DNA of 64,000 nucleotides from Lachnospiraceae bacterium AC2031 (lineage in GTDB: Bacteria; Bacillota; Clostridia; Lachnospirales; Lachnospiraceae). Where the stretch lies: NCBI GenBank assembly GCA_000687975.1, contig JIAB01000001.1, positions 2,332,001 to 2,396,000 on the forward strand, read 5' to 3'. Shown here piece after piece: positions 49,816 to 64,000 of the stretch (position 1 is the stretch's first letter; each line of letters begins with the position of its first letter). A program made the position numbers and the translations under genes. The notes under the pieces were generated by a model that had not been told where the DNA came from, did not search any database, and saw only the letters and a program-made list of their open reading frames with translations.

Positions 49816-49874
49816 ATATATTCGCGTTATTATCGATTCATTATTGAATGTATTGTTCATTAGGAGGTTTTATT

Positions 49875-51101
49875 ATGAGTTTGAATGATACACCATCAGG
49901 TGAACGCCTGAGAATCAGTTTTTTTGGAAAGAGAAATGCTGGAAAGTCCAGCCTTGTGAATGCAGTGACTAATCAGCAGCTGGCTGTGGTTTCTGACACT
50001 CTTGGAACTACAACAGATCCAGTGTCAAAGGCTATGGAACTGCTTCCGCTGGGGCCGGTTGTTATAACAGATACGCCGGGCTTTGATGATACAGGCGCTC
50101 TTGGCGAGCTGAGAGTAAAGCGTACAAAGCAGGTGCTCAATAAGACGGATATAGCAATCCTTGTTACAGATGCCACCAGAGACATGGATGAATCTGAGCA
50201 GGAGCTGCTTCGAATATTTGAGGAAAAGTCGATTCCATTTATTGTTGCGAAGAATAAATCAGATCTGCTAGAAAGTAGCCCAAATGGTACTTTTGAGCCG
50301 GATGCTTCGAGGAAAACGACTGATAAAAGTGAAATTCTGGTGAGTGCAACTGAGAAGACTGGAATTGAGGAACTGAAGGAGCTGATTGGCCACATTGTTC
50401 CAAGCGGGGATAATGGCATAAAGCTGGTGGGTGATGTGATAGAGCCGGGCCAGACTATCGTTCTGGTTATTCCAATTGATAAGGCGGCACCTAAGGGAAG
50501 GCTGATCCTTCCTCAGCAGCAGGCAATCAGAGATATTCTTGATTCCGGAGCGTATTCGGTTACTACAAGGGAGACGGAGCTTGCGGAGCTGCTTGATAAG
50601 ATGATCAGCGCTGGCATGAAGCCAGATCTTGTAATTACTGACAGTCAGGCTTTTGAAAAGGTAAATAAGATAGTGCCTCAGGATATAGCGCTTACTTCAT
50701 TCTCAATTCTTATGGCCAGATATAAGGGCTTCCTTGATACAGCTGTTAAGGGAGCGAGAGCCATAGATGAATTGCAGGATGGGGACAAGGTTCTGATCAG
50801 CGAGGGCTGTACTCATCATAGACAGTGCGGAGATATCGGAACTGTGAAGATGCCTAACTGGCTGGCTGAGAGAACTGGAAAGCAGCTGGTGATCGAAACT
50901 TCTTCGGGAGCAGATTTCCCAGAGAATCTTGAGGAATATAAGCTGATAATTCATTGTGGCGGATGCATGCTCAGTTTCCGTGAAATGGTATACCGCATGA
51001 AGTGTGCTGAGGATCTGGGGGTTCCTTTTACAAACTATGGAATAGCTATAGCATACATGAAGGGAATCTTGGACCGTACAATTGCACCTATATATGGTTA
51101 G
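49875..51101 (+). CDS. hydF: [FeFe]-hydrogenase H-cluster maturation GTPase HydF
   Basis: A 408-residue protein. The N-terminal GTPase domain has GKRNAGKSS (residues 18-26), the TTT switch, DTPGFDD and NKSD. The C-terminal domain carries Fe-S ligands CTHHRQCGD and IIHCGGC. HydF is the scaffold on which the two-iron subcluster is assembled before transfer to the hydrogenase. The ATG at 49875 follows a TAGGAGG site; an in-frame start at 49848 is less likely. HydE follows; HydG is not in the window. Confidence 0.94.
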   Translation: MSLNDTPSGERLRISFFGKRNAGKSSLVNAVTNQQLAVVSDTLGTTTDPVSKAMELLPLGPVVITDTPGFDDTGALGELRVKRTKQVLNKTDIAILVTDATRDMDESEQELLRIFEEKSIPFIVAKNKSDLLESSPNGTFEPDASRKTTDKSEILVSATEKTGIEELKELIGHIVPSGDNGIKLVGDVIEPGQTIVLVIPIDKAAPKGRLILPQQQAIRDILDSGAYSVTTRETELAELLDKMISAGMKPDLVITDSQAFEKVNKIVPQDIALTSFSILMARYKGFLDTAVKGARAIDELQDGDKVLISEGCTHHRQCGDIGTVKMPNWLAERTGKQLVIETSSGADFPENLEEYKLIIHCGGCMLSFREMVYRMKCAEDLGVPFTNYGIAIAYMKGILDRTIAPIYG

Positions 51102-51182
51102 ATGAGTAAATTGAGATACTTCTATAAGTATTGATTTATTGATGAATAATACTGCTTCGATGGAGTTTTAGGAGTTTATTTG

Positions 51183-52241
51183 ATGAGTAACAAGAAGTTT
51201 AGTTTAATTGATAAGTTAGAGGTGGAGCACAAGTTGTCCCGAGAGGAGTGGAGAACTCTTCTTGGTGGAAAAGCGTTTGAGGATGGAGAAGTGCTTCAGT
51301 ATGCGGCGAAGAAGGCTCGTAAAGTAGGTGATGAAATCTACGGCAAGGATGTGTTTATCCGAGGCATTGTGGAATTCAGCAATACATGCAACAAGAACTG
51401 CTACTACTGCGGACTTCGTGCAGGAAATGCGAATCTGGAGAGATATCGTCTGAGTGAGGAGGATATACTTCAGTGCTGTGAGGATGGCTACAAGTATGGC
51501 TTTAGAACCTTTGTGCTTCAGAGTGGGGAGGATCCTTACTACACAACTGAGATGATCTGTGACATAGTAAATCGTCTTAAGACAGATTACCCAGAATGTG
51601 CCGTAACACTTTCAATCGGTGAGAAGACATTTGACGAGTATAAGGCTTACCGTGAGGCGGGAGCGGATAGATTCTTGCTTAGACATGAGACTGCAAACCC
51701 AGAGCATTATGGAAAGCTTCATCCGGAGAATATGTCCTGGGAGAATCGAATGAGATGTCTCAGGGATCTCAAGGCGTTGGGATACCAGACGGGCTGCGGA
51801 GTTATGATTGGTTCCCCTGGACAGACAGTGGAGTGTCTGGTGGATGATATGCTGTTCATGCAGGATTTTGAACCAGAGATGATCGGACTTGGTCCATTTC
51901 TGCCGCATTCAGATACACCATTTAGAGATGAGGCAAAGGGCTCCTATGAGATGACGCTCTATCTTATAAGTCTATGTCGACTTATGCTACCACATGCTCT
52001 GATTCCAGCAACTACGGCTTTAGGAACTATTAAACCTAACGGACGTGAGCAGGGAATTCTGGCAGGGGCAAATGTCATCATGCCAAACCTTTCACCGGTG
52101 CAGGTGAGAGATAAGTATATGCTCTATGATAATAAGATTTGTACGGGCGACACGTCCAGTGAATGCAGGGGATGTATTGAAAGACGTGTGGAGTCTGTAG
52201 GCTACAAAGTGGCTATTACCCGTGGCGATTTTAAAGCTTAG
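51183..52241 (+). CDS. hydE: [FeFe]-hydrogenase radical SAM maturase HydE
   Basis: A 352-residue radical SAM enzyme with the cluster motif CNKNCYYC (Cys 69, 73, 76), followed by GLRAGNANLERYRLS typical of HydE, and a second cluster-type motif CTGDTSSECRGC (C-x7-C-x2-C) near the C-terminus. HydE acts on the iron-cysteine precursor made by HydG. Here it is followed not by hydG but by two nitrogenase-like operons, an unusual setting. The ATG at 51183 has TAGGAG upstream. Confidence 0.92.
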   Translation: MSNKKFSLIDKLEVEHKLSREEWRTLLGGKAFEDGEVLQYAAKKARKVGDEIYGKDVFIRGIVEFSNTCNKNCYYCGLRAGNANLERYRLSEEDILQCCEDGYKYGFRTFVLQSGEDPYYTTEMICDIVNRLKTDYPECAVTLSIGEKTFDEYKAYREAGADRFLLRHETANPEHYGKLHPENMSWENRMRCLRDLKALGYQTGCGVMIGSPGQTVECLVDDMLFMQDFEPEMIGLGPFLPHSDTPFRDEAKGSYEMTLYLISLCRLMLPHALIPATTALGTIKPNGREQGILAGANVIMPNLSPVQVRDKYMLYDNKICTGDTSSECRGCIERRVESVGYKVAITRGDFKA

Positions 52242-52280
52242 ATGTGTCGGTGATCAGGACGCGATTAAAAGGTGAAATAA

Positions 52281-53024
52281 ATGATTAAGTTTGCGATATA
52301 TGGAAAAGGTGGAATAGGAAAGTCTACGCTGTCATCGAATCTCTCGGCGGCTCTTGCCAAGAGGGGACTTACGGTTATGCAGATAGGCTGCGATCCAAAG
52401 GCGGATTCGACTTCACTTCTCTGTCCGAAGGAGAAGATCACAACGGTCCTCGACCTTGTAAGGAGTGGGAAGCCATTTGGCCTTGAAGATATGGTTAAGG
52501 AAAGCACTGCAGGGGTTCTATGTGTTGAGGCAGGTGGTCCGGTTCCTGGACTTGGCTGTGCAGGCCGTGGAATCATCAATGCTCTGGAGTCGCTGGAGCA
52601 GAAGGGTGCCTACGAGGTTTATAAGCCGGACGTTGTAATCTATGACGTGCTGGGTGACGTGGTTTGCGGCGGCTTTACCATGCCAATGCGTAAGGGCTAT
52701 GCTGACAAGGTTTATATTGTAACTTCTGGTGAGAAGATGGCAATTTATGCTGCGGCAAATATTGCTATGGCGGTGGAGAACTTCAAGAAGCGTGACTATG
52801 CAAAGCTGGGTGGAATCATTCTCAACTGTCGAGGCGTGGAGAAAGAAATCGAAAATGCTGAGACACTTGCCAAGGATTTTGATACCAGCGTGCTTGAGGT
52901 TATTCCAAGAAGCCCTCTCTTTGAGAAGGCGGAGGCTGCTGGAAAGACTGTGATCGAGATGTTCCCGGACAGCGATGTGGCAGAGAAACTGCTGAAGCTG
53001 GCTGATCGTGTGATGGAGCAGTAG
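52281..53024 (+). CDS. NifH-like Fe protein, first set
   Basis: A 247-residue member of the NifH/BchL/CfbC family. These form a homodimer with one bridging [4Fe-4S] cluster and pass electrons to a partner upon ATP hydrolysis. It has P-loop GKGGIGKST (residues 8-16), the DPKADST switch, cluster Cys 93 in GLGCAGRG (with the Arg that is ADP-ribosylated in some NifH) and Cys 129 in [11 protein letters not shown]. It is shorter than NifH of nitrogen fixers (about 290). The partner D/K-like genes follow with short gaps. Confidence 0.92.
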
Positions 53025-53061
53025 CTAAAGCTGCGATTAAAGATTTAGATTAAGGACGAGT

Positions 53062-54462
53062 ATGATAGAAGCGTTAAGAACGAAGGATAATAGAATACCG
53101 GAGCCAGTTCTGCTTAAAGACGTGGATTTTGAGATGCCATTTTACGAGGGCCTTCAGTATAATCCGCCTGCCAGAGGTGTGTGGAATATTGTGCACACTG
53201 GCATGCTGATCCCTGAGGCTCATCAGGTTTATGTGTGCGCACAGGGGTGCCTTCGAGGCGTTATCCTCACTGCCGCTGAGATGGATCTGATGGAGAGGAT
53301 GTCCTGGGTCTCACTTCGCGAGAAGGACATGTGGAACGGTGAAATGGAGTCTCGCGTGGTCGAGGGTGTGGCTCATATTGTGGAGCAGATGAAGAACAGA
53401 CCTCGCTGCATTCTGGTTTATCTCAGCTGTATGCATATGTTCGAGGGCTGCGACTTTAGAGTGATCGCGGACGAGCTGTCGGAGAGATTTCCGGGAACTA
53501 AATTTGTGGACTGCTACATGACGCCGACTATGAGGAAGAGCATATCTCCTGACGCCATGATGAAGGCAAGTCTCTATGATCCTGTGGAACCTCTTGCAAA
53601 GAATGAGAAGCTTCTAGGACTTGTAGGCTGTGACAGAGAGACTGACAGAACTTCGGATATCTTTGAGATAGCAAAGCTGGCTGGTTTTGATGTGTGGGAG
53701 ATCAACTCCTGCGAGACCTATGATCAGTATCTGGAGTTGGGGGCTGCATCAAAACTGATCTCATATCTGCCGGTGGCAAATGTGGGTGTCAGAAAACTGG
53801 CTGGTCGAATCGGCGCTGAGTGGAGTTACCTGCCTCTTAGTTACGACTTTGACCAGTGCGAAGAAAATATAAAGAAGATGGCAGAGTTCCTATTATCAGA
53901 AGGTGAATCTAAAGAAGACGAAACTGGTTTACATAACTCCAAAACTATAGATGAGTTTATAGCTGAGAAGAAGTCTCAGGCTGATAAGGCGCTGAAGGAA
54001 GCTCAGAAGATTATAAAGGATACACCAATCGCAATCGACTATTCGGCAACACCAAGACCTTTGGGGCTCGCGCTGCTGCTTACAAAGTATGGATTCAGGG
54101 TTGATACCATTTATACTGATGTATTCCAGAAGGAAGAACGTGCTGCATACGAGGAGCTGGTGAAGCTGAGACCGGATATCCAGATTTATCCGACTATGGA
54201 TCCAGCTATGAGATTTGCGGATAATGAATTTGAAGATGGACTTGATTTGGCAGAATCAGGAGAGAAAAAGCTGGCCGTTGGTCAGAAGGCTGCCTACTTC
54301 AATCATACACCTTATTTTGTAAATATCGCTGATGGTGGCGGAATGTACGGACTTGATGGAATCCGCCGTATGGCGGAAGAACTGGTGGATGCATTTAGTA
54401 CACCAAAGGATACAAAGAAGCTTATCAGCCACAAGGGAATTGGCTGTGCCAGCTGTTTGTAA
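53062..54462 (+). CDS. Nitrogenase component 1-like protein, D-type, first set
   Basis: A 466-residue protein of the NifD/BchN/CfbD superfamily. Candidate cluster ligands in the first domain are Cys 59 and 63 (VCAQGCLRG) and Cys 123 and 130 (LSCMHMFEGCD). In the middle, EINSCETYDQYLELG places Cys 217 where NifD has its FeMo-cofactor cysteine (inference from local pattern). The region matching the cofactor His (NifD 442) reads ADGGGMYGLDG and has no His aligned, although an FNHTPYF lies just before. A charged helical insertion occurs near residues 280-315. The protein ends with an unusual CASCL. It should dimerise with the next gene's product; the substrate is unknown. Confidence 0.85.
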   Translation: MIEALRTKDNRIPEPVLLKDVDFEMPFYEGLQYNPPARGVWNIVHTGMLIPEAHQVYVCAQGCLRGVILTAAEMDLMERMSWVSLREKDMWNGEMESRVVEGVAHIVEQMKNRPRCILVYLSCMHMFEGCDFRVIADELSERFPGTKFVDCYMTPTMRKSISPDAMMKASLYDPVEPLAKNEKLLGLVGCDRETDRTSDIFEIAKLAGFDVWEINSCETYDQYLELGAASKLISYLPVANVGVRKLAGRIGAEWSYLPLSYDFDQCEENIKKMAEFLLSEGESKEDETGLHNSKTIDEFIAEKKSQADKALKEAQKIIKDTPIAIDYSATPRPLGLALLLTKYGFRVDTIYTDVFQKEERAAYEELVKLRPDIQIYPTMDPAMRFADNEFEDGLDLAESGEKKLAVGQKAAYFNHTPYFVNIADGGGMYGLDGIRRMAEELVDAFSTPKDTKKLISHKGIGCASCL

Positions 54463-54473
54463 AAGGAAAGAAT

Positions 54474-55634
54474 ATGAATCAGACTGCAAGAATAATTTCA
54501 ATATATGCTGCGGATACATCGGGATTTTGTTCTGCTCTATATGAGTATGGAGGAATGACAGTGATCCACGACGCATCGGGATGTAACTCGACTTACACAA
54601 CCCATGATGAGCCTCGCTGGTACGACAAGGACAGCATGATGTATATATCAGGCTTTACAGAGAAGGACGCTATCATGGGAAATGATGAGCGTTTTGTCCA
54701 TGATCTGGTGTTGGCGGCAAAGGAGCTAAGTCCAAAGTTTGTTGCTATATGTGCGTCTCCGCTTCCTGCTATGACAGGTGTGGATTTAGAGGCTATAGCC
54801 TATGAGGTCGAGTCGGAGACAGGAATCCCAAGCTTCAATGTAAAGACCAACGGAATGCAGAGCTACATTACAGGTGCTGGAAATGCATTTGTAGAGCTGG
54901 CGAAGCATTTTACGAAGCCGGCTGAAAAGGCTGGAGTAGGACTTGTAAATGTACTGGGCCTTACACCACTGGATTTTCCGCTGGAGGGAACTGTGCAGAG
55001 CATGCGTAAGTGGCTGGCAGAGCATGGTTTCCAGGTAAATGCAACTGTGGGTATGGATACTTCGCTTGAACAGATTGAGAGACTTGCTGAGGCGGATATG
55101 AGTCTGGTGGTTGCATCAACAGGACTGCCTCTTGCAAAGTATTTGTTTGAAACCTATGGAATCCCATATGTGATCGGAGCACCATTTGGATGCGAAGATG
55201 CAACAGCGGTTCTTTGTATAAATATGAAAATGGCACTTGCAGAGGGAGCAAAGTTTAAGGGCGTTAAGATGATGGTGCCAGAAGGTGCGCGTATCGCAGT
55301 AATCGGCGAAAGCATCATGTCCCGTTCTCTTGCATATGCAATATATGCTGAATATAAGGTTCCAGCCAGAGTTCTTGAAAGCGTAGGAGATGGATTCGAT
55401 GACTATGATGTTTCCTGCGATGATGAAGATGAGCTGGAAGCAGAGATAGCGAAGTCTGATATAATTATCGGCGATCCGCTGTTTAAACCAATTTGTGGGG
55501 AGAAGCCATTTATCTCTCTTCCACATATGGCCTTTTCAGGAAGATGCTTCGTGAAGGATGAGGTTCAGCTGATTGGAAGACCTCTTAAGGAGACTGCTCT
55601 GGGTGAGGCTTTGTCGAAGTCTCTAGATCAATAG
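54474..55634 (+). CDS. Nitrogenase component 1-like protein, K-type, first set
   Basis: A 386-residue NifK-like protein, starting 12 bases after its D-type partner. Cys 19 (SGFCSAL), Cys 37 (ASGCNSTY) and Cys 93 (AICASPLPAMTG) occupy the spacing of the three NifK P-cluster cysteines, so an interfacial Fe-S cluster with the D-type protein is plausible. It is shorter than true NifK (about 520), resembling tetrapyrrole-reductase-type subunits in size. Confidence 0.85.
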   Translation: MNQTARIISIYAADTSGFCSALYEYGGMTVIHDASGCNSTYTTHDEPRWYDKDSMMYISGFTEKDAIMGNDERFVHDLVLAAKELSPKFVAICASPLPAMTGVDLEAIAYEVESETGIPSFNVKTNGMQSYITGAGNAFVELAKHFTKPAEKAGVGLVNVLGLTPLDFPLEGTVQSMRKWLAEHGFQVNATVGMDTSLEQIERLAEADMSLVVASTGLPLAKYLFETYGIPYVIGAPFGCEDATAVLCINMKMALAEGAKFKGVKMMVPEGARIAVIGESIMSRSLAYAIYAEYKVPARVLESVGDGFDDYDVSCDDEDELEAEIAKSDIIIGDPLFKPICGEKPFISLPHMAFSGRCFVKDEVQLIGRPLKETALGEALSKSLDQ

Positions 55635-55679
55635 ATTCGTGACGGCTAGCATTTAAATATATTATATGAGGAAATAATT

Positions 55680-56435
55680 ATGATAAAGATTGCAATATAT
55701 GGCAAGGGCGGAATCGGAAAGTCCACAGTGACTTCCAATCTTTCTGCGGCTCTTGCAAAGCTTGGAAAAAAGGTAATACAGATCGGCTGCGATCCAAAAG
55801 CAGATTCCACTGCGAACCTGCTGAATGGAGAGCCTGTAACTCCAGTTATGAACTATATGAGAGATACTGGTGAGGAGCCAACATCCCTTGACGAGATAAC
55901 TAAGGAGGGATACGGCGGCGTTGTCTGCATTGAGACAGGCGGACCAACTCCGGGTCTTGGCTGTGCAGGCCGAGGTATCATAACTACATTTTCCCTGCTG
56001 GAGGAGCTGGAGCTCTACAAGAAGTATCAGCCTGATGCAGTGCTTTACGACGTTCTGGGTGACGTTGTATGCGGCGGCTTTGCTGCACCTATCAGAGAGG
56101 GATATGCAGACAAAGTGCTGATCGTTACATCTGGAGAAAAAATGGCACTTTACGCGGCCAACAACATAAACACTGCAGTGAAGAATTTCGAAGATAGAAG
56201 CTACGCCAAGGTGCGTGGAATCGTAATGAACCGCCGAGCTGTTGAGGGAGAAGAGGAGAAGGTTCGTGCCTTCGCTGAGAAGTCAGGACTTGATATTGTG
56301 GCTGACATTCCTAGAACAAACGACATAATCCATTACGAGGATATGGGAAAGACTGTAATTGAAGGAAACCCTGATCTTGAGGTCAGCAAGCGCTTCCTGG
56401 AACTTGCCCAGCTTCTTATCGATGAGGATAAATAA
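55680..56435 (+). CDS. NifH-like Fe protein, second set
   Basis: A 251-residue NifH-family ATPase, clearly paralogous to the one at 52281. It has GKGGIGKST at residues 8-16, Cys 95 in GLGCAGRG and Cys 131 in [12 protein letters not shown] separate H protein for each D/K pair suggests two distinct enzymes or a donor/acceptor pair. Its stop codon overlaps the next start by one base (TAATG), so the second set is tightly coupled. Confidence 0.92.
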
Positions 56436-57760
56436 TGGAAATGAATAAACCATATTGTAAGACAACTAAAGAACTAGCTGAGCTGGGGCTGGCTGGACTT
56501 CCTGGTGAAATGAAATCCAGCGACCATCTTATCTACAGCTCGCCAGCTACCCTCTACTTTAACTCTCCTGGAGCAAAGGGCTTCGGCGTTAAGAGGGCAG
56601 GACTTGCAGTTCCTGAGTCGGTGATGCTGCTTGTATCACCTGGCTGCTGTGGGCGAAATACATCACTTTTTAGATCTGCTCCAGAATATAAGGACAAGTT
56701 TTTCTTCCAGCTTCTGGATGATACAGATATTGTGACAGGACGTCATCTTACCAAGATTCCTAAGGCTTGTGAGGAGCTTCTGGAAGTGTTGGAAAAGCAG
56801 AACAAGAAAAGACCTTCTGCCATAATGATATGTATCACCTGTGTGGACGCCCTTCTGGGAACAGATATGGAGCGTGTATGCCGCAAGGTTACAGAGACGA
56901 CTGGGGTGCCGGCTGTGGCATGCTACATGTATGCCCTCACTCGTGAGAAGCGTCTTCCACCTATGGCTGCAGTAAGAACCAGTGTTTACTCACTTCTTGA
57001 AAAACAGGAAAAGCGTAACTCTGCAGATATAAATATCATGGGATACTTTACTCCGCTTTTTGATTCGTCAGAGATTTATCCTCTTATGAAATCTCTTGGA
57101 GTTAAGAATATTAGGGAGCTTTCACGGTGCGAAAGCTTTGACCAGTATAAAGAAATGTCAAAGGCCAACTTTAATCTGGTGCTGAATCCAGAGGCCAGAG
57201 CGGCTGCGCAGAATATGCAGGAGCGACTTGGGATGCCATTTATCGAGCTCCTTCGTCTTTACAGGATCGATAAGATTCATAATCAGTATAAGTCTCTTGG
57301 AGATGCTCTGGGTGCGAACCTGGATGATTCCCAGTATTATGAGAAGGCTCGAAAGACTATAGATGATTTTAAGAAAAAACATGGAGAGGTAGTATTCTCT
57401 GTTGGAGAGATCACTAACGGAGATCCTATCGAAATGGCACTGATGCTGGTGGAAGAGGGCTTTAAGGTTAAGGAGATTTTTGCTACAGTGGGTGAGCTTA
57501 ATTTCCGTTTCCTGAAGAGACTGGCTGAGCTTAGTCCAGAAACCTTAGTTTATTCCAACCTTTCACCATCAATGATGTATTTTCTGGAGAGTAAAGAGTC
57601 TGATGAAAAGATTGATGTCTGCATCGGTTCTGACGCTATGTATTATCATCCGGATGTACCAAATGTTGAGTGGTGCGACGATGAACAGCCATTTGGATTT
57701 GACGGTGTGATCAAACTATTTGAGCGCCTGGATGCGGCATTAAACGAGGATAAAAAATGA
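56435..57760 (+). CDS. Nitrogenase component 1-like protein, D-type, second set
   Basis: A 441-residue paralog of the D-type protein at 53062 but strongly diverged. Cys 71/72 (VSPGCCGRNT) and Cys 133/136 (MICITCVDALLGTD) are candidate cluster ligands. Cys 232 in ELSRCESFDQYKEM aligns with the CETYDQY cysteine of the first set, so this position is conserved between paralogs. The N-terminus has an extra segment (YCKTTKELAELGLAGLPGE). The ATG overlaps the upstream stop. Confidence 0.83.
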   Translation: MEMNKPYCKTTKELAELGLAGLPGEMKSSDHLIYSSPATLYFNSPGAKGFGVKRAGLAVPESVMLLVSPGCCGRNTSLFRSAPEYKDKFFFQLLDDTDIVTGRHLTKIPKACEELLEVLEKQNKKRPSAIMICITCVDALLGTDMERVCRKVTETTGVPAVACYMYALTREKRLPPMAAVRTSVYSLLEKQEKRNSADINIMGYFTPLFDSSEIYPLMKSLGVKNIRELSRCESFDQYKEMSKANFNLVLNPEARAAAQNMQERLGMPFIELLRLYRIDKIHNQYKSLGDALGANLDDSQYYEKARKTIDDFKKKHGEVVFSVGEITNGDPIEMALMLVEEGFKVKEIFATVGELNFRFLKRLAELSPETLVYSNLSPSMMYFLESKESDEKIDVCIGSDAMYYHPDVPNVEWCDDEQPFGFDGVIKLFERLDAALNEDKK

Positions 57761-58860
57761 AAAAGATGTTGAAATATTTGTCTCCCTTCGCTCCGGATCA
57801 GTCAGGAGCCTGCGGAGTTTTATATGAGCTGGGTGGCCTGATCGTCATTTGTGATGCAGGAGGCTGCGCAGGAAATATATGCGGCTTTGATGAGCCTCGC
57901 TGGTTTACTAAGAAGAGTGCGGTATTCAGTGCTGGACTTCGTGACATGGACGCTATCATGGGCAGGGACGACCGCCTGATCGATAAGCTGTCCAAGGCAT
58001 ACAATCAGCTAGGCGGAGAATTTGCAGCCATAGTTGCAACTCCGGTACCAGCAGTTATAGGTACAGATATGAAAGCTTTGAAGCGTATGGCTGAGAAAAG
58101 GCTGGGAATACCATGTATCACGGCAAATGCCATCGGTACCCGTTACTTTGACGAGGGCGAGGAGGAAGCCTGGCTGAACCTCTTCAAGGAATTCGCTGGT
58201 AAATCTTCGTCAGATGGCGAGAAAGCGGAATCTAAAACTGAATCGACTCATATTGGAGTGCTCGGAGCCACACCGCTGGAAACTGGATACGCCACAGCTG
58301 AGCCTCTTCTTGAGATGGTAAAGGCAGAAGGAGTTGAAAGTCCTGTAATATACGGAATGGGTTCAGATCTAGAGGTTATCAGAAACATTAGTTCCATTAA
58401 AGAAAACTATGTTGTGAGCCCGGCTGGACTTAAAACAGCCAAGTATCTTGAAGAAGAATTTGGAATTCCTTATTCAGTTGGATTTCCATTTATTCCGGAA
58501 GATGTAAAAAGAAATGTAGCAGATAGTATTGATTCACTACTAAGTGTCCTTATAATTCATACTCAGTTTGCTGCAAATGAAATGAGAAATCAGATACGTA
58601 CGAATAAAGATAATGTAAAGGTCGATTGCGCAACCTTCTTTATGCAAAGTAGGGACTATGCAGAAGAGGGAGACTTAAGACTCTCAGGTGAAGATGATCT
58701 TGCAGAGTTAGTAGCAAAGAATAACTATGATCTGATCATAGCAGATAGTGATTTTGAAAGACTTCTTACTGCTAGTGGATATACAGGAAAGTTTGTAGAT
58801 TTCCCACACTTCGCAGTATCAGGCAGAATGAACGATGACTCAGTAATGTTCTTCTCATAG
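57757..58860 (+). CDS. Nitrogenase component 1-like protein, K-type, second set
   Basis: A 367-residue protein paralogous to the K-type protein at 54474 and overlapping its D partner by four bases (ATGA). Cys 19 (SGACGVLY) and Cys 37 (AGGCAGN) are kept, but the third ligand position is Val 93 (AIVATPVPAV) where the first set has Cys. Two additional cysteines (32 and 42) flank the second ligand. The inter-subunit cluster may therefore be ligated differently or be asymmetric. The TAG stop is immediately followed by repeat copy D. Confidence 0.83.
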   Translation: MKKMLKYLSPFAPDQSGACGVLYELGGLIVICDAGGCAGNICGFDEPRWFTKKSAVFSAGLRDMDAIMGRDDRLIDKLSKAYNQLGGEFAAIVATPVPAVIGTDMKALKRMAEKRLGIPCITANAIGTRYFDEGEEEAWLNLFKEFAGKSSSDGEKAESKTESTHIGVLGATPLETGYATAEPLLEMVKAEGVESPVIYGMGSDLEVIRNISSIKENYVVSPAGLKTAKYLEEEFGIPYSVGFPFIPEDVKRNVADSIDSLLSVLIIHTQFAANEMRNQIRTNKDNVKVDCATFFMQSRDYAEEGDLRLSGEDDLAELVAKNNYDLIIADSDFERLLTASGYTGKFVDFPHFAVSGRMNDDSVMFFS

Positions 58861-58910
58861 TGCAGTGGGGTCCGTCCCCACTGCACCGAGGTCTGTCCCC
58901 AATTGCACCA
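58860..58910 (-). repeat. Double-hairpin interspersed repeat, copy D (inverted)
   Basis: On the minus strand it reads TGGTGCAATTGGGGACAGAC, then the GTGCAGTGGGG / CCCCACTGCA hairpin, matching copies A and C in inverted orientation. It separates the nitrogenase-like genes from hypF without a T-run. Confidence 0.87.
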
Positions 58911-58933
58911 AATCAAGGAAAGGAGGAAACCAC

Positions 58934-61276
58934 GTGATAACACATCGAATAAGAGTATATGGCATAGTACAGGGCGTAGGTTTTCGTCCTTTTGTAAGTC
59001 GTACATGCCTGGATAGTAACATTAAGGGAACCGTGGCAAATAAGGGTTCCTATGTAGAGATATTTGCTCAGGGGGATGTAGAGAAACTCACATATGCTTT
59101 AAAGCATAATCCACCAGCGAGATCTGTGATCCTGGAGATCATTGATAAGACTGTGGATCTTCCTGAGTTTGAAACCTTTGATATCATCGAGAGTGAAAAG
59201 GATGAAGGGGCTATCTTTGTTTCTCCTGATATTGCCATCTGCGATGAGTGTAAGAAGGAGCTTTTTGACAAGAATAACCGCAGATACATGCATCCTTTTA
59301 TTAACTGCACAAACTGCGGACCAAGACTTACGATCTTGGATTCCATGCCTTACGACAGAGAACGTACCAGCATGAAGGAATTTGATATGTGTCCTGAATG
59401 TGAGTACGAATATACACATCCGGAAACAAGAAGGTACGACGCGCAGCCAGTTTGCTGCCCGAATTGCGGACCGGTTTGTTATACATTTGACCCGAAGAAT
59501 CCTTCAAAAAGAACTGTAGGAAATACAGCAATCACAGCTGCCAGAAAGGCTATATGTGACGGGAAGATAGTTGCGATTAAAGGAATCGGTGGCTTTCATC
59601 TTTGCTGCGATGCAACAAACGAAGAGGCAGTCAGTCGACTTCGAATGCTGAAGAATCGTCCGATGAAGCCATTTGCCGTTATGATGAAGGATCTGGATAC
59701 GGTGAGACGTGAGTGCAGACTTCCAGAAGGGGAATCTTACTTCACCGAGCTGCTTAATGGACATGAAAAGCCGATTGTCTTACTGGAAAAGAACGAAGAC
59801 ACCAAGGTGGTTGAGTCGGTTTCACCAGATAATCTGAGTATTGGCGTCATGCTTCCATATACACCGATACATCTTCTCATTTTTGACTACGAAGATGAAT
59901 ATAAAGTACCGGACATTCTGGTTATGACCAGTGCCAACGCATCTGGTGCACCGATATGCAGAACCGATGAGGATACGATCAGCGAGATAGCAGGCTTCAC
60001 TGATCTGGTGCTTTCCAATAACAGAACCATCAGGACCAGAGCTGATGATACAGTAATGGATACCCTGGGTGGCAAGCCTTATATGATACGGCGTTCCCGC
60101 GGCTATGCGCCTCTTCCACTTATGCTGGGGCAGGAACAGCGTGGCAGTGTGCTTGGAATTGGTGGCGAGCTGAAGAACAGCTTCTGTATCGCAAAGGACT
60201 CACTCCTTTATCCAAGTGCTTATGTGGGCGATATGGCGGATATCAGAACCGTTCAGGCGCTTACAGAATCGGTTGAGAGAATGGAAACTCTTCTTGAAGC
60301 AAAGCCGGAAATAGTTGTGGCTGACCTTCATCCGAAGTATAATACCACTGCTGTGGCAGAGGAGATTGCGGCTTCAAATGGCATCCCTCTTGTAAAGATT
60401 CAGCATCACTATGCACATATTCTTTCATGCATGGCAGAGAATGACTACCTGGACGAAGTTATCGGAGTATCCTTCGATGGTACAGGCTATGGAACAGACG
60501 GAACCATATGGGGCGGAGAGTATCTCAGGTGTTCAGTGTCAGACTTCGAACGACTAGGACATATAGCACCATTTGTTCAGTGCGGCGGTGATCTCTCGTC
60601 AAAGGAGGGCTGGCGTATAGCTGCCTCTATCCTTGGGGACTTTGCCGGTAGTGAGTCTGAATCAAATTCAGAAAAAAATGCAGGATCCGAACTGGTAAAG
60701 AAACTAAATCTTTGCACAGAGACGGAATATAGCATGCTCCAGAATATGGCAAAGCATGGAATAAATAGTGTAATATCTACAAGTGCTGGAAGACTCTTCG
60801 ATGCAGTTAGTGCAATACTCGGGATCAGGCGTGCGTCTACATTTGAAGGTGAAGCGGCAACCGCACTGATGTATTCAGCCCAGCGATTTTTGAAGCGATT
60901 TGGCTATGGAGATATGCTGGCACATATTGTTACTAACTACATTATGAGAAATACATATGAAGATACAAATCAGCTTGTTAAGGAGATAGCAAAGGCATAC
61001 ATTGAAGACGCAGATCCAGACGAACTGGCTATGGTATTCCATATGAAGCTGGCTGATATGATCTCTGAAAAGGTAGTAAAGTATTCTAAAGAAACTGGAA
61101 TAAAGACAGCGGCTCTTAGTGGTGGAGTGTTCCAGAATACGCTGCTGGTCTTCTTCACAAGAGAGAGACTTGAAAGTCAGGGGATAAAGGTATTGATTCA
61201 TAGTCTTGTTCCACCAAACGATGGCGGTATCGCAGTAGGACAGGCGTTATATGGATTAGCAAGGGTTAAAGAATGA
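58934..61276 (+). CDS. hypF: Carbamoyltransferase HypF
   Basis: A 780-residue [NiFe]-hydrogenase maturation enzyme that activates carbamoyl phosphate and transfers it to HypE, supplying the cyanide ligands of iron. Domains in order are an acylphosphatase (GIVQGVGFRPF), two zinc fingers (CDECKKELF..CTNCGPR and CPECEYEYT..CPNCGP), a YrdC-like domain and a Kae1-like domain (HHYAHILSCMAEN, GVSFDGTGYGTDG, ALSGGVFQNTLL). The GTG at 58934 has AAAGGAGGA upstream; an in-frame start at 58865 would be inside the repeat. Confidence 0.95.
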   Translation: MITHRIRVYGIVQGVGFRPFVSRTCLDSNIKGTVANKGSYVEIFAQGDVEKLTYALKHNPPARSVILEIIDKTVDLPEFETFDIIESEKDEGAIFVSPDIAICDECKKELFDKNNRRYMHPFINCTNCGPRLTILDSMPYDRERTSMKEFDMCPECEYEYTHPETRRYDAQPVCCPNCGPVCYTFDPKNPSKRTVGNTAITAARKAICDGKIVAIKGIGGFHLCCDATNEEAVSRLRMLKNRPMKPFAVMMKDLDTVRRECRLPEGESYFTELLNGHEKPIVLLEKNEDTKVVESVSPDNLSIGVMLPYTPIHLLIFDYEDEYKVPDILVMTSANASGAPICRTDEDTISEIAGFTDLVLSNNRTIRTRADDTVMDTLGGKPYMIRRSRGYAPLPLMLGQEQRGSVLGIGGELKNSFCIAKDSLLYPSAYVGDMADIRTVQALTESVERMETLLEAKPEIVVADLHPKYNTTAVAEEIAASNGIPLVKIQHHYAHILSCMAENDYLDEVIGVSFDGTGYGTDGTIWGGEYLRCSVSDFERLGHIAPFVQCGGDLSSKEGWRIAASILGDFAGSESESNSEKNAGSELVKKLNLCTETEYSMLQNMAKHGINSVISTSAGRLFDAVSAILGIRRASTFEGEAATALMYSAQRFLKRFGYGDMLAHIVTNYIMRNTYEDTNQLVKEIAKAYIEDADPDELAMVFHMKLADMISEKVVKYSKETGIKTAALSGGVFQNTLLVFFTRERLESQGIKVLIHSLVPPNDGGIAVGQALYGLARVKE

Positions 61277-62088
61277 ATAATATTCAGATAGCAAATGAAA
61301 CTCTAAGAATCTGCAAGGAAGGGAAGTACACTCTGGATGGTAAGGAGATTCAACTTCCACAAGTGGACTTTGAGGATGTTATAGTTATTAGTCCAAGGGA
61401 CGGAGAAGAACTTCTTAAGATGGATATTACACCATATAAGAAGGACGCTTACTCCGAGGGGGAAACCTGTAAGCTTACGGTTATTAACTCAGATTCCTAT
61501 GCAGCTGGAAGAAAGTATGAGAATGCACTGGTTATGAACTTTGCCAATGCTCATAACCCTGGAGGCGGCTTCAGGATGGGAGCCAACGCTCAGGAGGAGG
61601 CTCTCTGCAGATGCAGTACACTATATGCTTCCATTACTTCCAAGAAGGCAGGGGAAATGTATAAGTATAATAATACCCACGCCAGTCGTGTGGAGTCAGA
61701 CTATATGCTTATCTCGCCAAATGTAATCGTATTCAGGGATGAACGATTTAATCTGATGGAGAATCCTGTCACCATGGGAGTTGTAACAGTACCAGCTCCT
61801 AATAGATATGGTGCAGCCCTTCTTGCTTCAGGCAAAATGATAGAAGAAACCTTTATAAGAAGGATTCGGATCATGCTGGCTGCAGCTGCGAAGTATGGAT
61901 ATAATACTTTGGTGCTGGGTGCTTGGGGATGCGGTGCATTTGGAAATAAACCGCAGGACGTTGCCGGGTATTTTAAACAGGTAATAGTAGATGAAGGCTA
62001 TGGTAAATGCTTCGATGAGATATGCTTTGCCATATATGGACGAGAGGATGGTAACAATATCACCGAGTTCAGAAAGACCTTTGAATAA
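61273..62088 (+). CDS. TIGR02452 family protein (microbial PARG-like) in the hyp operon
   Basis: A 271-residue paralog of the protein at 1328. It has the loop NPGGGFRMGANAQEE, then ALCRCSTLY, and the late GAWGCGAFGNKP. Start and hypF stop overlap by four bases (ATGA), so it is translated with hypF. No accepted hydrogenase maturation pathway includes an ADP-ribosyl hydrolase. NifH proteins elsewhere are switched by ADP-ribosylation, and two NifH-like proteins are encoded just upstream, so reversal of such a modification is a tempting inference. A separate nucleotide-related role is equally open. Confidence 0.85.
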   Translation: MNNIQIANETLRICKEGKYTLDGKEIQLPQVDFEDVIVISPRDGEELLKMDITPYKKDAYSEGETCKLTVINSDSYAAGRKYENALVMNFANAHNPGGGFRMGANAQEEALCRCSTLYASITSKKAGEMYKYNNTHASRVESDYMLISPNVIVFRDERFNLMENPVTMGVVTVPAPNRYGAALLASGKMIEETFIRRIRIMLAAAAKYGYNTLVLGAWGCGAFGNKPQDVAGYFKQVIVDEGYGKCFDEICFAIYGREDGNNITEFRKTFE

Positions 62089-62133
62089 TAAAAACATAAT
62101 GAAATATAGATATAACATACGGAGGATAAAACT

Positions 62134-62358
62134 ATGTGTGTAGGACTTGCTGCTAAGGTTGTAAGTGTAAAGGACGGAACTGCTGTCATTGATGCCAGCG
62201 GTGCAAAGAGAGATGTAAGTGCAGAGCTTCTTGAGGATCTTGAGCCAGGAGATTACGTAATGGTTCATGCTGGAGTTGCTATTGCAAAGATCACATCAGA
62301 TGATGAGACAGAGTCAGAGGGAGTTATGGCTGGCCTTGCTTCTCATTCACGTGCATAG
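62134..62358 (+). CDS. hypC: Hydrogenase assembly chaperone HypC
   Basis: A 74-residue HypC/HybG-type chaperone starting MCVGLAAKVV, with the essential Cys at residue 2 that holds the iron centre together with HypD. It has a small beta-barrel pattern (VVSVKDGTAVIDASG, LEPGDYVMVHAGVAI). ACGGAGGA precedes the ATG, and hypD follows after 51 bases. Confidence 0.95.
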   Translation: MCVGLAAKVVSVKDGTAVIDASGAKRDVSAELLEDLEPGDYVMVHAGVAIAKITSDDETESEGVMAGLASHSRA

Positions 62359-62409
62359 CGTACTTGCAAAAAGAAAATGTCATATTATCGATAAAAAGAA
62401 GGAAGAAAA

Positions 62410-63468
62410 ATGAGTGATGTTATAAAAAATGCTCGTGAGATAATACAGAGCTACGATGGACCAAAGCTTCGCATCATGGAGGTCTGCGGAACTCATACTC
62501 ACGAGATATTCAAGATGGGAATCAGAAATCTGCTTCCAGAAAATATAGATCTTATATCCGGTCCTGGCTGTCCGGTTTGTGTTACACCTGTAGGCTTTAT
62601 CGATGAGGCAATCTATCTTGCCCTCGAAAAGGGATGCGTGATAACCACATTTGGCGACCTGATCAAGGTGCCTGGAACAAAGAGCAGTCTGGCTGGTGCA
62701 AGAAGTGAAGGCGCAGATGTGCGTCCTGTATATTCACCAGATGACGCGGTGGAACTTGCTAAGGAGAATCCTGATATGCAGGTTGTGTTCCTTGCTGTTG
62801 GTTTTGAGACAACAACACCTTCAGCATGCCTTGCAGTTAAGAAGGCACAGCGTCTCGGACTTAGTAACTTTTCGATACTAACTGCCAATAAGACTATGCC
62901 AAGTGCTTATAAGAAGCTGGCAGGAAGTGCAGATGCATTTCTTTTCCCAGGACATGTAAATGCAATCGCCGGCAACAGTGTTTGTAAGGAACTGACTAGC
63001 CTTGGTGTATCTGGTGTTGTAGCAGGCTTTACTGCAAATGAGCTTATGACAGCTCTGGCTGTTATTATAGAGGAATCCAAGAAGGGCAAGCCTTTCTTTG
63101 TTAACTGTTATCCAAGAGTGGTAAAGGACGAAGGAAACCCAGCTGCCCAGAAGCTTGTGGAAAGCGTTATGGAGTCCTGTGATACAGAGTGGCGCGGTCT
63201 TGGAATGATAGAAAAATCAGGAATGAAGCTGAGAGATGAATATGCAGATTTTGATGCTCGTAAGAAATACTCGGTGCCTGATATTCAGGGTAAGCCAAAT
63301 CCAGCATGCCGTTGTGGTGAGGTTCTTCAGGGTAACTGCAAGCCAACCGATTGTCCACTTTTCGGTAAGGTGTGCGACCCAATACATCCAGTAGGTGCCT
63401 GCATGGTATCTGATGAAGGTGCGTGTGCAGCTTACTATCATTACGGTCCAAGCATTAACCTGAATTAA
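62410..63468 (+). CDS. hypD: Hydrogenase formation protein HypD
   Basis: A 352-residue [4Fe-4S] protein forming, with HypC, the scaffold for Fe(CN)2CO assembly. Motifs include EVCGTHTH, GPGCPVCVTP (with the catalytic Cys pair), FLAVGFETTTPS, FPGHVNAIAG and the C-terminal cluster ligands in CRCGEVLQGNCKPTDCPLFG. AGAAGGAAG precedes the ATG. Confidence 0.95.
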   Translation: MSDVIKNAREIIQSYDGPKLRIMEVCGTHTHEIFKMGIRNLLPENIDLISGPGCPVCVTPVGFIDEAIYLALEKGCVITTFGDLIKVPGTKSSLAGARSEGADVRPVYSPDDAVELAKENPDMQVVFLAVGFETTTPSACLAVKKAQRLGLSNFSILTANKTMPSAYKKLAGSADAFLFPGHVNAIAGNSVCKELTSLGVSGVVAGFTANELMTALAVIIEESKKGKPFFVNCYPRVVKDEGNPAAQKLVESVMESCDTEWRGLGMIEKSGMKLRDEYADFDARKKYSVPDIQGKPNPACRCGEVLQGNCKPTDCPLFGKVCDPIHPVGACMVSDEGACAAYYHYGPSINLN

Positions 63469-63504
63469 TATGAAATTAGATATATAAGGGAGATAAAACA
63501 CTAT

Positions 63505-64000
63505 ATGGAAGATAAGATTACACTGGCTCATGGTTCTGGTGGTGTTCAGACAAATGAGCTTATAAACAGTATTTTTAAGAAGCATTTTGATAACCCATAT
63601 CTTACAGCTGATGACGCTGCTGTACTTGATATTGAGAAGACTGTTAAGGAATCTGACAGCAACCTCAAGCTTACTAACAAAGTGTCCATGTCGACAGATG
63701 GATTCATTGTATCTCCATTTGAATTCCCAGGTGGAAATATTGGTAAGCTCTCAATCTGTGGAACGGTAAATGATATCGCATGTATGGGAGCTAAGCCGGA
63801 GTACCTCACCTGCGCTATGGTAATAGAGGAAGGCTTCCCAGTAGCAAAGCTTGATGAGATCGCTGCTGCTATGGCAAAGACAGCTAAGGAAGCTGGAGTA
63901 TATCTTGTAGCTGGTGATACAAAGGTTGCAGGAAAAGGACAGGTAGATCAGATATTTATAACAACTACAGGCTTCGGTCATATCTTTGAGGGCGTATCCA
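63505..64000 (+). CDS. hypE: Hydrogenase expression/formation protein HypE (3' truncated by window)
   Basis: The first 165 codons of a HypE. It starts MEDKITLAHGSGG, then DDAAVLD (ATP/Mg binding), MSTDGFIVSPFEFPGG, SICGTVNDIACMGAKPEYLTC and VAGDTKV, as in the AIR-synthase-like family. HypE dehydrates the carboxamide on its C-terminal Cys to a cyanide; that Cys lies outside the window. AAGGGAGA precedes the ATG. Confidence 0.93.
   Translation, partial: MEDKITLAHGSGGVQTNELINSIFKKHFDNPYLTADDAAVLDIEKTVKESDSNLKLTNKVSMSTDGFIVSPFEFPGGNIGKLSICGTVNDIACMGAKPEYLTCAMVIEEGFPVAKLDEIAAAMAKTAKEAGVYLVAGDTKVAGKGQVDQIFITTTGFGHIFEGVS

Follow-up and report, generated by a model that had tools for sequence, protein, structure and literature searches.

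Two nitrogenase-like gene sets between hydEF and hypFCDE as a probable HydG-independent route to the H-cluster of [FeFe]-hydrogenase

Two sets of nitrogenase-like genes are embedded between hydrogenase maturation genes in the genome of Lachnospiraceae bacterium AC2031. The stretch of DNA analyzed here, called the window, comprises 64,000 nt (JIAB01000001.1, positions 2,332,001-2,396,000) of a 3.19-Mb single-contig genome. From position 49848 to the window end, the genes are arranged in the order hydF-hydE-[H1-D1-K1]-[H2-D2-K2]-hypF-hypC-hypD-hypE, all on the + strand (Table 1), with intergenic gaps across the cluster of -4 to 81 bases (hydF start 49878, hypF start 58934). Here, H denotes the Fe protein and D and K the two component-1 subunits of a set. 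This is the layout given in the original prediction, and every gene named there is present. The CO and CN- ligands of the H-cluster are commonly attributed to HydG. The gene cluster most likely does the job of HydG in many gut and gas-fermenting bacteria without a recognisable HydG, and we consider it probable that it encodes a HydG-independent assembly route, in which set 1 replaces HydG and set 2 together with HypFCDE acts as supplier.

Table 1. Genes of the cluster, their positions in the window and the matches that identify them (L005 is the locus reaching beyond the window).
Feature	Position	Strand	Evidence and remarks
hydF, H-cluster scaffold GTPase	49848..51101 (likely start 49878)	+	TIGR03918, 553 bits (cut-off 325.6)
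hydE, radical S-adenosylmethionine (SAM) H-cluster maturase	51180..52241	+	TIGR03956, 547 bits (cut-off 254.6)
H1, Fe protein of set 1	52281..53024	+	Fer4_NifH, 297 bits
D1, component-1 subunit of set 1	53062..54462	+	Oxidored_nitro, 48.9 bits (cut-off 28.6)
K1, partner subunit of D1 in set 1	54474..55634	+	Oxidored_nitro, 110.7 bits
H2, Fe protein of set 2	55680..56435	+	Fer4_NifH, 303 bits
D2, component-1 subunit of set 2	56435..57760	+	Oxidored_nitro, 102.9 bits
K2, partner subunit of D2 in set 2	57757..58860	+	Oxidored_nitro, 69.6 bits
hypF, carbamoyltransferase	58865..61276 (start taken as 58934)	+	TIGR00143, 741 bits (cut-off 466)
PARG-like gene between hypF and hypC	61273-62088	+	TIGR02452; absent from the original prediction
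hypC	62134..62358	+	L005 15135-15359
hypD, Fe(CN)2CO scaffold	62410..63468	+	TIGR00075, 409 bits (cut-off 192.8)
hypE, 5' part	63505..64000, continues past the window	+	L005 16506-17546; sequence similarity and motif, not family search

All four component-1 subunits score above the Pfam cut-off for Oxidored_nitro, the two Fe proteins are 55% identical to each other and the full-length HypE ends in PRIC. Since a genome search with PF00148 returned only D1, K1, D2 and K2, the genome contains neither nifDK nor nifEN; no search was made for nifB.

To compare the occurrence of set 1 with that of HydG, 293 genomes of the same class were searched for HydF, HydG (cut-off 312 bits) and D1. Presence and absence were counted by eye from the tables, consistent with tallies of 200 genomes with HydF and 190 with HydG above cut-off. 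HydF was found without HydG in 17 genomes and together with HydG in 183, while 93 genomes lacked HydF, seven of them with HydG. D1 matches occurred in 18 of the 293 genomes, 13 of them close (E <=6e-81, a limit chosen once the distance to the following match was apparent) and five distant (5.6e-59 or weaker). All close matches fell into the group with HydF but without HydG (13/17), and none was observed in the genomes with both proteins (0/183) or without HydF (0/93). The difference between 13/17 and 0/183 corresponds to a Fisher p of ~3e-17, with relatedness ignored. The distant matches belong to four genomes with HydF and HydG (G063, G131, G117, G231) and to one without HydF (G125). Both states also occur side by side among relatives: genus g58 includes six genomes with D1 but without HydG (G050, G119, G138, G173, G252, G268), three with HydG but without D1 (G074, G207, G283) and one that lacks D1, HydG and HydF (G223); genus g129 contains two genomes of the first kind (G180, G275) versus one of the second (G290), and the families f1, f37, f39, f56 and f59 each include both. 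All 13 genomes with a close D1 carry an [FeFe]-hydrogenase (PF02906), and HydG reached the cut-off in none of them. As a side observation, HydG lies above and HydF under cut-off in G011, G083, G093, G114, G146, G219 and G261, where gaps or split genes are likely.

The same picture was obtained with genomes from a GTDB scan, of which the best 80 of at least 574 relatives were kept. Among these 80 are Clostridium ljungdahlii, C. ragsdalei, C. carboxidivorans, C. luticellarii, Ruminococcus albus, R. bicirculans, Lentisphaeria/Victivallales and one Spirochaetaceae genome. Fifty of the 80 loci, chosen for spread and including C. ljungdahlii, R. albus, Lentisphaeria and a spirochaete, were searched as whole genomes: HydG was above cut-off in 0/50 and PF02906 in 50/50. 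The HydA of the window genome retains TSCSPGW, MPCTAKKFE and MGCPGGCINGGGQP, which we take to be H-cluster motifs, and the cluster motifs of the linked HydE and HydF are intact in 50/50 and 32/32 copies, respectively. Because these organisms have an [FeFe]-hydrogenase but no HydG, a specific rather than a vague role can be proposed for the cluster. The original prediction had left the choice between a new reductase and a machine for an iron-CO/CN or dithiolate cofactor; the iron-CO/CN half is the one borne out, and the absence of HydG alongside an [FeFe]-hydrogenase had been missed.

A divergent radical-SAM protein could instead do the job of HydG, with the nitrogenase-like sets sharing a hydrogen-metabolism island and serving another function. 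Some D1 genomes do contain HydG-model matches of 170-228 bits, and the available sections of PMC9431212 give HydG for C. autoethanogenum and name atypical HydG candidates in other acetogens. Nevertheless, the best match does not exceed 85 bits in 9/13 of the class genomes with close D1 and reaches 68 bits in C. ljungdahlii (G324). In the window genome, a profile search found nothing above 312 bits, and the sole strong match (178 bits) was rejected as a divergent HydG, since it adjoins a gene that by eye resembles thiG and is most likely ThiH. A 421-amino-acid match of similar score is also present in G063, despite a HydG of 710 bits in that genome. As this alternative would furthermore turn the mutual exclusion of D1 and HydG into a coincidence, we regard it as improbable.

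The HydG gap itself is already known in part. The accessible text of PMC9431212 reports no HydG for C. ljungdahlii, C. ragsdalei, C. coskatii, C. carboxidivorans and C. sp. AWRP, and lists it for C. autoethanogenum, C. drakei and C. scatologenes. It also describes HypCDEF without HypA/B in several acetogens, for which its authors had no straightforward explanation; an atypical HydG or the uptake of free diatomics were their options. In that part of the paper, HypA and HypB are missing in C. ljungdahlii and C. ragsdalei, C. carboxidivorans has two sets of hypCDE, and the word nitrogenase appears in a reference title only. In the openly licensed PMC literature, without bioRxiv, we found no published link of nitrogenase-like genes to HydG or [FeFe] maturation and no published account of the transporter-linked sets described below. 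What is new, as far as these sources reach, is a set of candidate genes for the gap in C. ljungdahlii and its relatives.

The gene cluster recurs in Clostridia, Lentisphaerota and a spirochaete, i.e. in three phyla. A set 2 gene is present in 67 of the 80 GTDB loci, together with a hyp gene in 55 of the 67. In the 12 two-set loci without a visible hyp gene, the last named gene is at most 230 bases from the locus end in 11, and 1467 bases are left in L072. hydE or hydF lies inside 43/67 two-set loci, and the two-set layout with hyp genes is also found in the families f37 and f39, besides the family of the window genome. Since these genes are found together in several families and across three phyla, the arrangement is not due to chance, and a linkage of hyd and hyp genes confined to the window genome is refuted by these neighbourhood surveys. 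Some loci vary in the Fe protein: in six f39 loci (L040, L041, L043, L044, L045, L046), set 1 lacks an H gene of its own, so H2 presumably serves both D-K pairs there. In G180, H1 and D1 form one frame of 698 amino acids (L034 10712-12805, - strand), which may be a fusion or the result of a very short spacer. The PARG-like gene has near-full-length matches in just three cases among the 80 GTDB loci, and directly after hypE, outside the window, lies a gene that by eye resembles a sodium:solute symporter (L005 17610-19253).

Most genomes with two sets lack the usual target of Hyp proteins. A [NiFe] large subunit was found in none of the ten two-set class genomes (0/10), the window genome included, all of which carry hyp genes at the locus. 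Among 42 further genomes classed as two-set, it is missing in 34; of these, 32 show a hyp gene, and the loci of the remaining two (L052, L054) are truncated by contig ends. A [NiFe]-hydrogenase as the client of the Hyp genes was rejected on the basis of the ten class genomes, though eight of the 42 others show a match (see below). The linked Hyp proteins look functional from their motifs, with the PRIC C-terminus in 42/42 HypE, CGTH and GPGCPVC in 49/49 HypD and the Cys2 motif in 46/46 HypC. According to the part of PMC12130793 at hand, the PRIC cysteine carries thiocyanate made from carbamoyl phosphate.

Set 1 occurs in two layouts. We checked 12 genomes with set 1 only at the D1 locus for HypD and component-1 genes. 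In 11 of them (G195, G061, G126, G325, G326, G327, G330, G335, G336, G337, G340), neither HypD nor a component-1 gene above cut-off beyond the set 1 pair was found, whereas the twelfth (G341, L131) does contain HypD, along with a second component-1 pair on another contig. The loci of the 11 genomes, together with L129 (HypD status unsearched), all contain an ATP-binding cassette (ABC) triad, consisting of a substrate-binding protein, a FecCD/BtuC-like permease and an ATPase (12/12 set-1-only loci). The triad is not present in L131 or in the short set 1 contigs L070, L082 and L110, and none of its genes reached 150 bits in the 67 two-set GTDB loci or in 11 two-set class loci, the window included. 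Sampled transporter proteins (L037, L114) resemble siderophore, heme and B12 importers and reach no equivalog cut-off. From this mutually exclusive distribution, set 1 is accompanied either by set 2 and HypFCDE or by an ABC transporter, and set 1 is the common part of both layouts.

These layouts bear on two further ideas. The Hyp proteins alone might supply CO and CN- for the H-cluster, the nitrogenase-like proteins being unrelated; their retention without a [NiFe]-hydrogenase in most two-set genomes and the invariant PRIC end of HypE would agree with this, but the eleven HydG-less genomes have set 1 and no HypD, so that the shared part is set 1 and not Hyp, and we consider the idea very improbable. 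The original prediction had also compared the two sets with NifDK and NifEN, one complex acting as scaffold for the other. So far this finds no support: set 2 is dispensable in 11 genomes and alternates with an ABC transporter, and it therefore looks like a supply module, not a scaffold.

Related H-D-K sets with the same kind of ABC triad (HDK+ABC) exist apart from set 1, and this nitrogenase-like system may be the ancestor of set 1. In quick trees of the H and D proteins, set 1 and set 2 each form one side of a branch, with support of 99 to 100 in the Shimodaira-Hasegawa-like approximate likelihood-ratio test (SH-aLRT). Together with the HDK+ABC proteins, they make up a larger group separate from the Nif and Bch rows, and the rows nearest to set 1 in the D tree are the HDK+ABC proteins of G063 and G131. 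The trees carry SH-aLRT values only, cover a small number of reference families, CfbC/D and Mar not among them, and have a flagged long BchL/BchN branch.

In searches with family models, no protein of the two sets reached the cut-off of any nitrogenase-family model listed, nifK included. The Fe proteins stay under the cut-offs for nifH (TIGR01287: H1 310, H2 313 bits; cut-off 394), CfbC (H1 308, H2 296 bits; cut-off 402) and bchL (194 and 211 bits; cut-off 345). The best component-1 scores are 39 bits for nifD (cut-off 654), 73 bits for nifE (K1 and D2; cut-off 505), at most 69 bits for the bchB models (cut-off 509) and 23 bits for CfbD (TIGR03282, K2, no other subunit listed; cut-off 268). 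Nitrogenase, a NifEN-like pair and an F430-type reductase were accordingly rejected as identities of the sets, on the curated cut-offs and on the cofactor cysteine described next. As far as tested, the proteins lie outside the characterised clades, by tree for NifHDK, NifEN and BchLNB and by profile score for CfbCD, and the linkage is widespread; neither of the two outcomes that would have contradicted the original prediction was thus encountered.

The models of D1 and D2 adopt the nitrogenase component 1 fold (predicted local distance difference test, pLDDT, 83.2 and 83.4, respectively). The best fold match in the PDB is the nitrogenase 4wes_B, and the Mar structures 9fmg/9d9u are among the matches, not top-ranked. 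Walker A is present in 77/78 H1 relatives and 64/64 H2 proteins, and both cluster-Cys motifs in all of them (78/78 for H1). Near-full-length D1 sequences share a CxxxC[LM]RG motif (74/74) and a C-terminal tail with at least two Cys within the last eight residues (74/74), a tail found in 0/6 HDK+ABC D proteins. K1 carries GCNSTY (74/75) and K2 GGC.GN (48/48), and the conserved K cysteine is present in the same numbers. D1 and D2 retain the cysteines aligned with those we take to be Cys88 and Cys154 of NifD; in the column of the cofactor ligand, presumably NifD Cys275, none of the D1, D2 and HDK+ABC rows shown has Cys. Since the Cys88/Cys154 equivalents and the K cysteine are kept and the cofactor column has no Cys, the pattern points to a simple [4Fe-4S] cluster, not to a P-cluster plus cofactor. 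On the other side, D1 may bind a cofactor, given a mostly invariant Cys217, which lies 19 residues upstream of the cofactor column, is invariant in 38 D1 and is missing in 3/13 other D1 (L038, L040, L044).

Nitrogenases reduce CO2, cyanate and thiocyanate. We infer that the nitrogenase-like proteins and those linked to them work in H-cluster assembly, and it is likely that set 1 substitutes for HydG. HydE and HydF would keep their usual roles. H1 would act as an ATP-driven Fe protein, donating electrons of low potential to an Fe-S cluster that D1 and K1 bind. The set 1 complex would make or finish the iron-CO/CN unit used by HydE, its product being CO and/or an Fe-CO/CN unit. HypF and HypE would convert carbamoyl phosphate to cyanide, HypC and HypD would carry an Fe-CN/CO unit and set 2 would most likely be the CO supplier, e.g. 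by CO2 reduction. In the set-1-only genomes, the siderophore/heme-type ABC transporter would take the place of this supply module. We lean towards set 1 being fed by set 2 and Hyp or by import; the reaction of each set and the substrate of the transporter are speculative, and a reduction of CO2 to CO by set 2 seems rather doubtful. Tentatively, and with slightly more confidence than for that single step, the reductases might produce CO, probably out of CO2, and convert the Fe(CN)2CO built by Hyp into Fe(CO)2CN for HydE, with the tail cysteines of D1 carrying the unit. These cysteines could hold CN- or an Fe-bound group like the PRIC cysteine of HypE, a guess from resemblance.

An enzyme of this type would not be without parallel. 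The available part of PMC12176620 offers a precedent, in which a different metal cofactor is activated at the expense of ATP and with nitrogenase-like clusters. For the [NiFe] field, the sections at hand of a 2025 review (PMC12134894) see the most pressing open question in where the CO ligand comes from under anaerobic conditions, and discuss a reduction step that would need about -530 mV and the involvement of ATP, a need that a nitrogenase-type reductase could meet.

The sets might alternatively produce the dithiolate bridge, or an H-cluster that differs in its ligands, rather than the like-for-like products of HydG. A cluster with other ligands would fit the CN-rich Fe(CN)2CO of the Hyp unit, as opposed to the Fe(CO)2CN of HydG, and HydA is present in all genomes searched. 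Yet HydE and HydF are retained, the ligand motifs of HydA in the window genome are ordinary and the products of HydG would still need a source, which makes this alternative quite improbable, marginally more so than a divergent HydG. Organisms related to the D1 carriers do have working [FeFe]-hydrogenases: the multimeric enzyme of R. albus has been studied (PMC5626996, as far as available), and the available main text of a transposon study of C. autoethanogenum (PMC9004356), which contains none of the terms nitrogenase, maturation, HydE and NifH, cites a bifurcating [FeFe]-hydrogenase from this organism.

Several observations weigh against a replacement of HydG by set 1. Four class genomes with HydF and without HydG have no D1 (G140, G240, G243, G288; loci L138-L143), and their HydG is either hidden by gaps in the assembly or replaced by a further route. 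G140 and G288 have hydE and hydF and no component-1 gene above cut-off; a gap is possible in G288 because its congener G178 has HydG. In G243, hypD and hypE adjoin genes that by eye resemble hypA, hypB and a hydrogenase large subunit. G240 carries an H-D-K set of another kind (L140 7046-10320), and slightly more than 1 kb beyond its H gene lie transporter-like genes (by eye). The absence of HydG is generally weaker evidence in draft than in finished genomes, and the HydG listed for C. autoethanogenum concerns a near relative of C. ljungdahlii. HDK+ABC sets, moreover, occur in genomes with HydG (G063, G131 and G117, G231 in part), which shows that enzymes of this kind also serve a different function. 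Their four class loci (L047, L048, L049, L050) have no linked hyd gene, and three of these four genomes (G063, G131, G117) contain HydG; a further set on plasmid pTS1 of Treponema saccharophilum (L151 14001-20297) has no hyd gene within 14 kb. Neither hydE nor hydF lies close to the sets in five Clostridium loci (L111, L115, L119, L121, L128). The [NiFe]-type matches in 8/42 genomes include C. ljungdahlii, C. ragsdalei, C. carboxidivorans and C. muellerianum, and the other four cover approximately the first 70 positions only. Finally, labelling in R. eutropha, as given in the accessible part of PMC12134894, excluded added CO2 as the direct source, which would argue against CO2 as the origin of CO if the same holds here.

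If the proposed route exists, it would be a second biological way to an Fe-CO/CN cofactor, in which two maturation systems taught as separate, those of [NiFe]- and [FeFe]-hydrogenases, are joined in one gene cluster. This would give nitrogenase-like enzymes a part in the assembly of an organometallic cofactor, a task new to them. If the reductases do make CO, set 2 would become a candidate for an anaerobic source of the CO ligand, and the finding may bear on the origin of this ligand in [NiFe]-hydrogenases as posed in the available text of PMC12134894. The bacteria without a recognisable HydG include industrial acetogens and hydrogen metabolisers of the rumen and gut, for which the genes are a concrete, genetically testable candidate.

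Compared with known systems, the cluster shares HydE, HydF and HydA, all with curated-model scores, with the HydE/HydF/HydG maturation system, but HydG is replaced by nitrogenase-like sets (HydG in 0/13 and 0/50 genomes). As in HypCDEF-dependent assembly of Fe(CN)2CO, HypF, HypC, HypD and HypE are present with their catalytic motifs, whereas a [NiFe] large subunit is mostly missing and the genes are joined to nitrogenase-like genes in one cluster. NifHDK and NifEN are alike in fold, in the Fe-protein motifs and in the cysteines at the NifD Cys88/Cys154 positions; scores far under the equivalog cut-offs, the missing cofactor Cys and the separate tree group set them apart. BchLNB and CfbCD act on tetrapyrrole cofactors. 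With these enzymes, the sets would share an ATP-driven Fe protein and a simple Fe-S cluster, judging from the Cys pattern, but the scores are far under cut-off and the neighbours are different (CfbCD is outside the trees). The HDK layout is common to MarHDK and the HDK+ABC sets; Mar uses nitrogenase-type metalloclusters (PMC12552129, available part), and the accessible text of PMC10418091, which places MarHDK-like genes near other clusters, and that of PMC3515406 have no bearing on this locus. The HDK+ABC sets are closest to set 1 in the D tree and share the ABC triad with the set-1-only loci; D1 is distinguished by its CxxxC[LM]RG motif and by the two-Cys tail, the latter absent from the HDK+ABC D proteins.

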